A stretch of DNA of 64,000 bases, taken from assembly GCA_022567295.1 (NCBI GenBank), contig JADFHE010000003.1:38721-102720 (forward strand). The letters run 5' to 3'. Source of the DNA: Pseudomonadota bacterium. GTDB taxonomy: Bacteria > Pseudomonadota > Gammaproteobacteria > Steroidobacterales > Woeseiaceae. Both the position numbers and the translations under genes were made by a program. Below the pieces are notes generated by a model. That model did not search any database. It was not told where the DNA came from and was given only the letters and a program-made list of their open reading frames with translations. Position 1 is the stretch's first letter, and each line of letters opens with the position of its first letter. Shown here one piece after another: positions 37,263 to 48,789 of the stretch.

Positions 37263-37916
37263 ATGCAGACAACAGCCAAAAATCTGAGCGATGTACCGGC
37301 TATCAACCGATTCTTGAGTTACTGTCGTGTACGAACTGTGCCGTCGAAGACCGTAATGATTCACGCCGGCGATTTGCCGGATGTTTTGTATTACATCGTC
37401 GATGGCTCGGTTGAAGTCATGATCGAGGACGAAGACGGCAATGAGATGGTGCTGGCGTACCTGAACAAAGGACAGTTCTTCGGTGAGATGGGCCTTTTCT
37501 ACGAGCAACCGACTCGTAGCGCGTGGGTGCGTACTCGTACCGAGTGCGAAATCGCCGAAATGACATATCCCCGCTTCCGACAGATCGCCAGCGAAAGTCC
37601 CGGGCTTGTATTTGAACTCGCCACACAGTTGGCGACGCGCCTCGACCGGACCAACCGCAAGTTGGGTGACTTGGCATTTGTGGACGTCACAGGCCGGGTC
37701 GCTCACGCCATCATGGATCTTTGCAACGAACCCGATGCGATGACGCATCCGGATGGCATGCAAATTAAGGTCAGCCGCCAGGAACTCAGCCGCCTCGTCG
37801 GCTGCTCGAGAGAAATGGCAGGCCGCGTCCTCAAGGTCCTTGAGGAACAGGGGCTGGTGTCTGCCAGCGGCAAGACGATTGTGGTCTACGGCGCGCGACC
37901 AAACCGAAACCTGTAG
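37263..37916 (+). CDS. crp: cAMP-responsive global regulator CRP (Vfr/Clp-like)
   Basis: 217-aa CRP/FNR-superfamily regulator. The cyclic-nucleotide domain has GQFFGEMGLFYEQPTRSAWVR, keeping the phosphate-binding Glu, Arg85 and Ser86 of CRP. The C-helix reads DRTNRKLGDLAFVDVTGR, so the E. coli Thr127-Ser128 pair becomes Thr-Asn, which may alter ligand affinity. The HTH recognition helix GCSREMAGRVLKVLEEQGL keeps Arg, Glu and Arg that contact TGTGA. DAMTHPDGMQIKVSRQEL is shared with Vfr and Clp. A TGTGA-N6-TCACT site at 47.3 kb is a likely target in this window. Its stop codon forms part of the left REP. Confidence 0.94.
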   Translation: MQTTAKNLSDVPAINRFLSYCRVRTVPSKTVMIHAGDLPDVLYYIVDGSVEVMIEDEDGNEMVLAYLNKGQFFGEMGLFYEQPTRSAWVRTRTECEIAEMTYPRFRQIASESPGLVFELATQLATRLDRTNRKLGDLAFVDVTGRVAHAIMDLCNEPDAMTHPDGMQIKVSRQELSRLVGCSREMAGRVLKVLEEQGLVSASGKTIVVYGARPNRNL

Positions 37917-45492: not shown

Positions 45493-46746
45493 ATGTCTTA
45501 TCTGAAACACTTCAGACTATCGGAGCAGCCGTTTCGGCTGACGCCCGACCCTGAATTCCTTTACTGGAGCAAGCAGCACTCACGTGCAAAGGCCTATATG
45601 GAATCGACCATCTGGCTTGCGGATGGTTTCGTTGTCATCACCGGTGAAATCGGTTCAGGAAAAACCACGCTGCTGCAGTCATTTTTGTCAGAGTTAGGCG
45701 ATGACGTGGTGCACGCTGTCGTGTCGCAGACACAACTGACGCCAACGCAATTTCTGCAGGCCGTGCTAACCGAGTTCGGCTTCAAGCCGTTTAAAAAGCG
45801 CAAAGTTGAACTGCTGGACATGCTCAATATGTTCCTGATCGAACAGTATTCGAGCGGCAAAAAAGTCGTACTGATCATCGATGAAGCCCAGAACCTGACG
45901 AAGAAAGTGCTTGAAGAGATTCGCCTGCTCTCGGGAATTGAAACACACAAGGAAAAGGTGCTGCGCATCATTTTGGCCGGGCAGCCAGAACTCAAAGACA
46001 CGCTGGACCTGGCCAGCATGAAACAGCTGATGCAGCGCGTTCGATTGCGCTTTCACATCGGCCCGCTTGATCGCCGCGAGATGCGAGAATACGTCGAGCG
46101 GAGGTTATCTATCGCAGGGCGAAAGAAAGCGGACCTGTTTTCCGATGACAGCTTTGACGTTTTGTATCGATTCTCAGGCGGTGTGCCGCGCCTGATCAAT
46201 ACGCTGTGCGACACTGCGTTGCTGTGCGCATTCGCGGATGATAAGAAGGTCGTAGACGCTGACGATGTCAGCACGGCGGCCGAAGAGTTGAACTGGCCGG
46301 AACACGAGTCTAATACGGGTGTTTTCGATCAACTTCGGCGACGGCAAGCAGATCGCCATTCCGACTCCGATTTGCACATTTCTCGAATCGAAGTTCGCAC
46401 GGACAATGCGATTGTTGACGTTCTCACGTTCCCGCTGGGACGCGTAATCGTCGGCCGTTCACCGGACAATGAAATCTACATCCAGAGCAAGTTTGTCAGT
46501 CGCCATCATGCACAGCTAATCAGTGACGAAAGCGGCTGCGTCATTGAAGATCTGAACAGCACCAACGGCGTTTTCCTCGGCGATAAGCAGATCAAGAAAT
46601 ACCGCCTTTGTGATGGCGACATAATCTCGATCGGCGTACATGAACTCGTCTATCACGACCTGCGCGATGCACAGGAATTCGACGGCCGCGAAACGATTGC
46701 GGAAGACGAAACAGGTAATCAGGGATCGGTCGTTAACGAAAAGTAG
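45493..46746 (+). CDS. ExeA-like AAA+ ATPase with C-terminal FHA domain
   Basis: 417-aa protein. The N-terminus YLKHFRLSEQPFRLTPDPEFLYWS is the ExeA/GspA signature. Walker A is GEIGSGKT (about 51-58) and Walker B is LIIDEAQ (about 128-134), within an AAA_22-type ATPase that has the sensor GQPEL and a C-terminal lid (SGGVPRLINTLCDTALLCAF). Residues about 300-395 form an FHA domain (VIVGRSPDNEIYI ... VSRHHAQLI ... DLNSTNGVFLGDKQI), the phosphothreonine-binding fold. I use the ATG at 45493. No ExeB or type II secretion gene is nearby. FHA replaces the peptidoglycan-binding domain of classical ExeA, suggesting control by a Ser/Thr kinase rather than wall anchoring; that is inference. Confidence 0.88.
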   Translation: MSYLKHFRLSEQPFRLTPDPEFLYWSKQHSRAKAYMESTIWLADGFVVITGEIGSGKTTLLQSFLSELGDDVVHAVVSQTQLTPTQFLQAVLTEFGFKPFKKRKVELLDMLNMFLIEQYSSGKKVVLIIDEAQNLTKKVLEEIRLLSGIETHKEKVLRIILAGQPELKDTLDLASMKQLMQRVRLRFHIGPLDRREMREYVERRLSIAGRKKADLFSDDSFDVLYRFSGGVPRLINTLCDTALLCAFADDKKVVDADDVSTAAEELNWPEHESNTGVFDQLRRRQADRHSDSDLHISRIEVRTDNAIVDVLTFPLGRVIVGRSPDNEIYIQSKFVSRHHAQLISDESGCVIEDLNSTNGVFLGDKQIKKYRLCDGDIISIGVHELVYHDLRDAQEFDGRETIAEDETGNQGSVVNEK

Positions 46747-46750
46747 GTGT

Positions 46751-46969
46751 TTAGTAATCCTGTCGCTGACCGACACGACGATCCGTAACCCGGTGGTCGC
46801 GGCGCTTCAGGAAAACCACCATTCCGGCCACCAGGCAGATGAGCCCAACGACGAAACAAATCGTCGGCCAGTGCCAGTGATTGACGTACATGGAAGCGCC
46901 CAGGCAGGTGGCTCCTACCAGCAGGTAAAAGTACGGTAAACTTTCGTAGATTGGCTTCGAGACCCACAT
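46751..46969 (-). CDS. Small two-helix membrane protein
   Basis: 72-aa protein of unknown family. Two hydrophobic segments are clear (YFYLLVGATCLGASMYV and ICFVVGLICLVAGMVVFL), separated by NHWHWPT. They are followed by a strongly charged tail (KRRDHRVTDRRVGQRQDY) that would face the cytoplasm by the positive-inside rule. The overlapping frame on the same strand (46719-46967) has no such organisation. It converges on the ExeA-FHA gene, four bases from its stop. Confidence 0.68.
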   Translation of the reverse strand: MWVSKPIYESLPYFYLLVGATCLGASMYVNHWHWPTICFVVGLICLVAGMVVFLKRRDHRVTDRRVGQRQDY

Positions 46970-47048
46970 ATTGGCGTCGTTATCATCCCCGGGGTCAATT
47001 CATTTTCCATAGCGGGGAGCCGTTGTCCAGTGGAAATCGAACTTTCTG

Positions 47049-47219
47049 TCAGGATTCCCCTGCGCTAAACAGCCCCATAATCCTGGAAAGTATTGATTCA
47101 GACAGGCCATCGACAGAGAGATCAGGCTCGATTTCGCCCATGTCGCCGCTTAAATTTTGCACGAATTGCTGGGAATTAGCGTCCGTATCCTGCTCTGTTA
47201 TTGTATTTTCGAATGCCAT
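47049..47219 (-). CDS. 56-codon acidic small protein, not in the ORF track
   Basis: The sequence starts MAFENTITEQDTDA and ends RIMGLFSAGES, then TGA. It has 56 aa, is acidic (about eleven Asp or Glu against one Arg) and ends in a short amphipathic or hydrophobic helix (ESILSRIMGLF). A very strong AAGGAGG site lies nine bases before the ATG, stronger than almost any other in the window. Upstream are a -35/-10 pair (TTGAAC, 18 bases, TTATGG) and an excellent CRP-like site. I do not recognise the protein. Its acidic body with a small C-terminal helix would suit a regulatory small protein, a chaperone-bound effector or a peptide precursor, but nothing here decides. Confidence 0.65.
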   Translation of the reverse strand: MAFENTITEQDTDANSQQFVQNLSGDMGEIEPDLSVDGLSESILSRIMGLFSAGES

Positions 47220-47241
47220 TGCAAACTGCCTCCTTGCGATA

Positions 47242-47271
47242 CCATAAAAGGTAACGCAGCACTATGTTCAA
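47242..47271 (-). promoter_or_regulatory. Predicted promoter of the small acidic protein
   Basis: On the minus strand TTGAAC (47271-47266), an 18-base spacer and TTATGG (47247-47242) form a moderate sigma70 promoter immediately downstream of the CRP-like site. Predicted transcription would start near 47235, only about 15 bases before the ATG. Confidence 0.45.
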
Positions 47272-47293
47272 TGGAGTGAGCTGTCTCACATTG
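47272..47293 (-). promoter_or_regulatory. CRP/Vfr binding site
   Basis: Minus strand AATGTGAGACAGCTCACTCC matches the TGTGA-N6-TCACA consensus at nine of ten core positions and closely resembles the E. coli lac CRP site. The centre lies roughly 46 bases upstream of the predicted start of the small acidic ORF, near a class II activating position. The recognition residues of the CRP encoded at 37.3 kb are conserved, so binding is plausible. Confidence 0.65.
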
Positions 47294-47340
47294 TGCGCTG
47301 TGAAACGCGTGATTTTCGGCTTATGTAAAAGTGCCCCCGC

Positions 47341-48789
47341 CTAACCTGTGCCGCCGACCGTAATCTCATCGATCTTCAATGTCGGTTGACCCACGCCGAC
47401 AGGCACCGATTGCCCTTCCTTGCCACACGTGCCAACTCCCGAATCCAGTTCGAGGTCGTTACCAACCATCGAAATTTTGCTGAGCGCTTCGGGCCCGTCG
47501 CCAATGAGCATCGCGCCCTTGACTGGCGCGGTCACCTTGCCCTTCTCGATCAGGTACGCCTCGCTCGCCGAAAACACGAACTTGCCAGACGTGATGTCAA
47601 CCTGACCCCCGCCGAAGTTCGGCGCATAAATACCCTTGTCCACCGACGCGATAATCTCCTCCGGATCGTGTGGGCCGGCAAGCATGTAGGTGTTTGTCAT
47701 GCGCGGCATCGGGACGTGTGCAAACGATTCCCGGCGGCCGTTCCCAGTTGATTTGACGCCCATCAGGCGAGCGTTGAGCTTGTCCTGCATATAGCCCTTG
47801 AGCACGCCATTCTCTACCAGTACTGAATACTGGCCCGGCGTTCCCTCATCATCGACCGTAAGTGAACCGCGACGGTCGGCAATGGTTCCATCATCAACGA
47901 TGGTGCACAACGAAGACGCGACCTTTTGACCCAACCTGCCGCAGAACGCCGACGTGCCCTTGCGGTTAAAGTCACCTTCCAGTCCGTGACCAACGGCCTC
48001 GTGGAGCAATATCCCCGGCCAGCCAGGTCCCAACACGATCGGCATCGTACCGGCCGGCGCAGCCCGCGCGTCAAATTGCACAACGGCCTGGCGAACCGCT
48101 TCACGCGCGAAATCCATCGCGATGTCGCCGTCCAGGAAATAGTTCAGGTCCGTGCGTGCACCACCCCCCGCGTAGCCCTGCTCTCGCCGCCCGCCCTGTT
48201 CAAGTATCACACTGACATTCAGGCGCACGAGCGGCCGCACATCGGCCGCTATCGTACCGTCGGAAGCAAGCACCAGAATCAGGTCCTGACTACTCGCAAG
48301 ACTAACGATAACCTGCGTGACGCGCGGGTCCATGGCGCGGGTCGCCGCATCGATTTCGCTGAGCAATGCGGTCTTTTGTGTGTCGTCTATACTGGTCGTT
48401 GGATCATGCGCCGAGTACAACGGCGCGACATGACTGCGACTCCAGGCCTGCACACTTCTGTCCTGTCCCTGGCGCGCAATGGCCCGCGCCGCGCTCGCTG
48501 CTCGTTCGAGCGCCGGCATCACGAGCTCATCTGAATACGCAAAACCGGTTTTCTCGCCACTGGTTGCGCGTACGCCCACGCCCTGATCGAGACTGAAACT
48601 GCCGTCGCGGATGATGCCGTCCTCAAGCGTCCAACTCTCGTGGCGACTGACTTGAAAATACAGGTCGGCGTAGTCCACGCCGCCCTTCATCATGCGGCCA
48701 AGCGTGCTACTGAGATTGCGCTCATCAAGCCCGGCAGGCTCAAGCATGCGGGACATTAATGCATCAATGGTATTATCGTTCAAATTCAA
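47341..48789 (-). CDS. tldD: Zinc metalloprotease TldD
   Basis: Catalytic subunit of the TldD/TldE protease. The zinc motif HEAVGHGLE (HExxxH form) lies in [22 protein letters not shown]. The N-terminal [39 protein letters not shown] and the C-terminal [45 protein letters not shown] are conserved. Length 482 aa. It is the last gene of the run maf-rng-yhdP-nit-tldD. Its partner PmbA lies 4 kb away beyond purE, purK and other genes. Confidence 0.95.

Follow-up and report, generated by a model that had tools for sequence, protein, structure and literature searches.

A conserved 56-codon gene of Woeseiaceae with a predicted class II CRP promoter and a product outside the recognised protein families

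The gene described here is located in a window of 64,000 nt, i.e. the whole stretch of DNA that was analysed, from a representative of the Woeseiaceae (Gammaproteobacteria; assembly GCA_022567295.1, contig JADFHE010000003.1, positions 38,721–102,720 of the forward strand). It comprises 56 codons at positions 47049–47219 of the minus strand (MAFENTITEQDTDANSQQFVQNLSGDMGEIEPDLSVDGLSESILSRIMGLFSAGES), runs from ATG to TGA and had been missed by the ordinary annotation. The first-pass annotation proposed a 56-codon ORF with a strong Shine-Dalgarno sequence, and both are present: the motif AAGGAGG (47229–47235, minus strand) is located 9 nt 5' of the start codon, and its equivalents in most relatives are of the GGAGG type. 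Further upstream, all on the minus strand, follow a −10-like box TACCTT with a match to TAnnnT (47248–47253), a conserved stretch of the TTCAACAT type that emerged from the upstream alignment (TTGAACATA; 47263–47271), the palindromic CRP site TGTGAGACAGCTCACT (47275–47290) and a near-invariant ACATAA element (TTTACATAAG; 47320–47329). The small gene is flanked upstream by tldD, which encodes a metallopeptidase (47341–48789, minus strand), and downstream by a gene for a 72-aa protein with two TM segments (46751–46969, minus strand), whereas an ExeA-like AAA-FHA protein is encoded convergently on the plus strand. The presumed activator, a cAMP receptor protein (CRP) of 217 aa, is located on the plus strand at 37263–37916.

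Our protein search detected full-length homologues (E≤1.7e-5) in 80 of the 107 Woeseiaceae genomes, and a contig search recovered 42 named loci with a homologue, many of them from this family. The gene order tldD–small gene–two-TM gene–exeA/purK/purE is retained in each gene-carrying Woeseiaceae locus examined, as far as the contig extends; this synteny with tldD probably does not reflect a functional link. Three other families of the order (f3, f6, f10) also contain members, the proteins of which are 21–45% identical to that of the window, and class-wide searches retrieved no convincing member beyond the order. The initial annotation had named conservation of frame and start together with Ka/Ks as a check on the ORF, and both frame and start proved to be conserved. 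The median dN/dS amounts to 0.18 for the unsaturated pairs among 47 distinct coding sequences, while the shifted frames of the same set exhibit non-coding-like pN/pS values of 1.24 and 2.24. The entropies of codon positions one to three (0.55, 0.35 and 1.35) document that the third position varies freely and that the first and second do not. These three measures show a coding sequence under purifying selection, and it is near certain from the comparison of relatives that the ORF at 47049–47219 represents a genuine gene.

The promoter region shows an equally conspicuous conservation. The alignment of upstream regions revealed the motif TGTGAG-N4-CTCACT in nearly all close relatives, and most of them exhibit a full 10/10 match to TGTGA/TCACT, thus corresponding to a TGTGA-N6-TCACA-like site. 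A TAnnnT hexamer starts exactly 37 bases past the first T of TGTGA in all 43 distinct promoters of the family in which a site could be recognised (48 promoters were measured, five of which yielded no site under the pattern applied); the family member G001 harbors a CRP site and lacks the hexamer. With the hexamer taken as a putative −10 at −12 to −7, this offset of 37 bases places the center of the CRP site at −41.5 with respect to the predicted transcript start, and −41.5 is the class II position of CRP (PMC2859248). The TGTGA-N6-TCACT site, which the first reading had placed at a plausible activating distance, is thus conserved and located exactly at −41.5. Both the half-site TGTGA and the offset of 37 bases are retained in f3, f6 and f10 at the low protein identity mentioned above, as exemplified by G108 (TGTGAAGCAGATCACT..TAGTAT), G165, G181, G157 and G198 and by five genomes of f10 that combine TGTGATTYTCCACAC-like sites with TAAC(G/T)T; the −10 offset of the f6 member G228 differs by one. 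The genome from which the window was taken contains 49 matches to TGTGA-N6-TCAC compared with 11 for the reversed control pattern. Among 29 other CRP-like sites of this genome, four have a TAnnnT at +37, compared with 0.17 on average at each of the other offsets, which suggests that CRP uses this position generally. The palindrome, its center at −41.5 and a matching CRP are all present, which makes a class II CRP-dependent promoter near certain as far as it can be read from the DNA, and we infer that CRP binds the site, depends on cAMP and activates rather than represses. The coincidence of the signals had been regarded as unlikely by chance, a view that is strengthened by the retention of frame, ATG, Shine-Dalgarno sequence, CRP site and −10 in the relatives and by the genomic enrichment of the CRP pattern. 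For the gene and its class II CRP promoter taken together, the comparative evidence leaves us with very little doubt.

The CRP homologue (E = 4e-79 to the E. coli-type CRP) is located 9.4 kb from the small gene and retains the recognition-helix residues R-E-x-x-x-R, in agreement with the earlier claim of a CRP with conserved recognition residues about 10 kb away. The presence of a class III nucleotide cyclase domain in the genome makes cAMP plausible. CRP was found in 80 of 80 genomes that carry the small gene, and an intact gene in none of the 14 genomes without detectable CRP, most of which are reduced (1.1–2.0 Mb). Only the C-terminal third of the gene is left in two of these CRP-less reduced genomes (G094, G046), and the promoter is gone. 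Clean loss of the gene has also occurred in several CRP-positive genomes (G056, G069, G070, G023, G026, G030 and others), including the loss of both promoter and gene in G056, and CRP-positive G055 has kept the CRP site, the Shine-Dalgarno sequence and the ATG with only 13 remaining codons. The clean losses in CRP-positive genomes indicate that the small gene is not essential and that CRP works without it. Because genome reduction and the incompleteness of MAGs are confounding factors, the common loss of gene and CRP represents support rather than proof. The small family genomes without detectable CRP (1.1–2.0 Mb) are G012–G020, G046, G072 and G094; the two-TM gene and exeA are also absent from the locus in G015, G016, G018 and G020, where purK directly follows tldD. 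The full-length CRP copies of the family are 94–100% identical, compared with about 65–92% for TldD in the fetched family loci, and the evolution of CRP is accordingly unusually slow.

The ACATAA element is located 23–39 bp upstream of the CRP site. Its spacings group around 36 and 25, which differ by roughly one turn of the helix, as though another protein were obliged to remain on one and the same side of the DNA. The element may represent the site of a second regulator. It is still present in some genomes without the gene, and a genome-wide count (8 versus 12 control matches) revealed no enrichment. Its interpretation as the −35 of another promoter was rejected on inspection, as the window has no −10 at a distance of 17 bp. 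Some relatives have TTATGTC, which is the ACATAA element in reverse, in place of the TTCAACAT-type stretch that separates the CRP site from the −10.

Many relatives exhibit a GC-rich hairpin with a T run after the stop codon (e.g. AAACCCGGCCAATGGCCGGGTTTTT in L010), which is absent from the window and its nearest relatives. The alignment furthermore indicates that the two-TM gene has a promoter of its own, CTGGAC-N17-GAAAAT (47002–47030, minus strand), which is kept in relatives as a CTGGAC-N17-GAGAAT type. Terminator and separate promoter together make the small gene look monocistronic in many relatives. A suspected frameshift in the two-TM gene was rejected, the stretch in question being the conserved promoter of that gene, and so was a functional tie to the ExeA/FHA ATPase, as exeA is retained in several genomes without the small gene.

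The 56-aa protein has no relative in Pfam, NCBIfam or PDB, which is in line with the initial statement that it belongs to no recognisable family. The Pfam family DUF1107 matches no member, no family was found at E≤0.01 in A3, and the searches in A1 yielded only two weak matches of single members to other families. In the protein, a variable linker connects an N-terminal helix with a conserved motif at the C-terminus, (D/F/Y)xVDGhxxShhxRhhxhF. Two AlphaFold runs predicted helices at about 9–27 and 39/43–52/55, both with low confidence (pLDDT 66, pTM about 0.3), and the fold is therefore not established. Conservation among 32 members climbs toward the C-terminus, with T6, D33, V36 and G38 invariant and M1, D37, S42 and R46 nearly invariant. 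The C-terminal helix is predicted to be amphipathic (muH about 0.45–0.58 in most members) and hydrophobic (H about 0.6–0.75), and it is more cationic in distant relatives. The description of the product as acidic holds within the family, where the pI ranges from about 4.05 to 4.7 (window protein: pI 4.05, net charge −10), and fails for the more distant members with a pI of 6.5–9.5. The acidity is therefore incidental, and a reading as DNA mimic was rejected for the same reason; what defines the protein is its C-terminal motif. Together with the conserved class II CRP promoter, these sequence comparisons define what we regard as a new small-protein family that is absent from Pfam and NCBIfam.

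Several alternative explanations have to be weighed. Short ORFs preceded by a Shine-Dalgarno sequence are common, so that a chance ORF with chance motifs might be considered, but the homologues, the dN/dS, the aligned promoters and the exact −10 spacing refute this scenario, whose probability is practically nil. The palindrome could be bound by a different regulator of the CRP/FNR family, given that its position 6 is usually G (TGTGAG...CTCACT) while the consensus is T. However, the lac site itself reads TGTGAG...CTCACT, the recognition residues of CRP are conserved, other TGTGA-N6-TCAC sites of the genome favor an equal spacing to a −10 and the presence of the gene follows that of CRP, which leaves only a slight probability for another regulator. 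The gene could also act mainly at the RNA level, with a CRP-controlled transcript of about 250 nt serving as a base-pairing sRNA and the peptide being secondary. The short CRP-controlled unit, its terminator in many relatives and the precedent of VcdRP of Vibrio cholerae, a CRP-controlled dual RNA (PMC8672173), are compatible with this explanation. Yet amino acids are fixed while third codon positions are free, the protein motif persists at 21–45% identity, the window has no terminator, and Rfam gave no match up to E = 1 across 46700–47450; a main role as RNA is thus highly unlikely.

Two further alternatives concern the peptide itself. TldD and TldE process peptides, and the location directly downstream of tldD in every gene-carrying family locus examined could be explained by a TldD substrate or RiPP-like precursor that functionally belongs with tldD. 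Three f10 genera, however, encode, next to a histidine kinase, a longer protein whose C-terminal motif is similar (L181, L104 and L182, corresponding to G631, G140 and G128), accompanied by a YscW lipoprotein in L181 and L104, and the fetched flanks of these three loci contain no tldD match. The sequence matches of these proteins to the family are weak, and independent support comes from the shared promoter, as GTGA-N6-TCAC with TAnnnT at +37 occurs in two of the three loci; they possibly represent a second branch of the family. Motif proteins apart from tldD argue against a functional tie to TldD, as the linkage expected of a TldD/TldE substrate is not universal. The small gene moreover has its own promoter and, in relatives, its own terminator, tldD remains where the small gene is lost, and conservation is strongest at the C-terminus rather than in a leader, so that we consider a TldD substrate very improbable. 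Less remote, but still unlikely, is a membrane-acting peptide, i.e. an anchor, a small toxin or a bacteriocin-like product, for which the hydrophobic and amphipathic C-terminal helix with its more cationic character in distant relatives could be adduced. Such a role fits poorly with the vertical inheritance of the gene, which occupies one locus throughout the family, with the overall acidic character within it, the lack of an immunity or antitoxin partner nearby and the missing relationship to PDB or Pfam entries.

A real gene that has been kept across families behind a CRP switch is probably the source of a small protein made upon sensing of the carbon supply. The best overall explanation, and a likely one, is in our view that the gene forms a transcription unit of its own, is activated by cAMP-CRP and encodes a small protein of a new family that acts as a regulator or adaptor, whereas the chances of the regulator or adaptor part, taken for itself, lie slightly below even. 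In this scenario CRP would bind the lac-like palindrome, which is centered 41.5 bp upstream of the predicted transcript start and overlaps the −35 region, and would recruit RNA polymerase in the manner of other class II promoters. Translation of the 56 codons would then be driven by a leader of some 22 nt that bears the strong Shine-Dalgarno sequence, and the product would consist of two short helices, of which the N-terminal one is variable and the C-terminal one is conserved, amphipathic and equipped with the motif. This product would work as a carbon-status-responsive small regulator or adaptor, an action that we infer, by analogy with YtfK, to be exerted via the C-terminal helix, which may dock on a conserved partner, either a protein or, less likely, the membrane, comparable to YtfK on SpoT. 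A bolder proposal, which we put forward as tentative and rather doubtful, is that the gene is the founding member of a cAMP-CRP-induced small effector family across this gammaproteobacterial order, whose C-terminal docking motif would bind one conserved target of central physiology, and whose promoters would carry a second regulator, bound to ACATAA at a constant helical phase, allowing a joint readout of CRP and a second signal.

In marine sediments, Woeseiaceae are an abundant group of heterotrophs, and the literature searched contained no report on CRP regulation in this family. The promoter described here provides a concrete, highly conserved CRP target and a usable class II model for the Woeseiaceae, and the gene adds a small-protein family to those covered by Pfam and NCBIfam. 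If the docking motif has one partner, this partner would tie carbon sensing to a defined target. Water-column Woeseiaceae are reported to have smaller genomes (1.7 versus 3.1 Mb; PMC12175321). As reduced genomes lack both the gene and CRP, the loss of cAMP-CRP control may mark the water-column lifestyle, a reading that is drawn from genomes carrying no habitat label.

Among known systems, YtfK (DUF1107) resembles the window protein as a small, cAMP-CRP positively regulated candidate for a carbon-status regulator; its gene is activated by cAMP-CRP and YtfK binds SpoT (PMC8600398), but the two proteins are unrelated in sequence. VcdRP (PMC8672173) and Spot 42 likewise combine a short CRP-controlled transcript with a small ORF, from which the window ORF differs in its strong protein-level selection and the lack of an Rfam match. 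With respect to the promoter, the closest equivalents are E. coli galP1 and the CC(−41.5) class II promoters, which share the TGTGA-N6-TCAC site centered at −41.5 over the −35 region, the TAnnnT −10 and the CRP recognition helix. The 16-bp core of the relative L004, TGTGAGTTAGCTCACT, is identical to the E. coli lac CRP site, from which the window differs at two positions; the lac site, however, is of class I at −61.5, in contrast to the class II site at −41.5 of the window family. Compared with the standard description of class II promoters, this family adds the near-invariant ACATAA 23–39 bp upstream and the TTCAACAT stretch between the CRP site and the −10.
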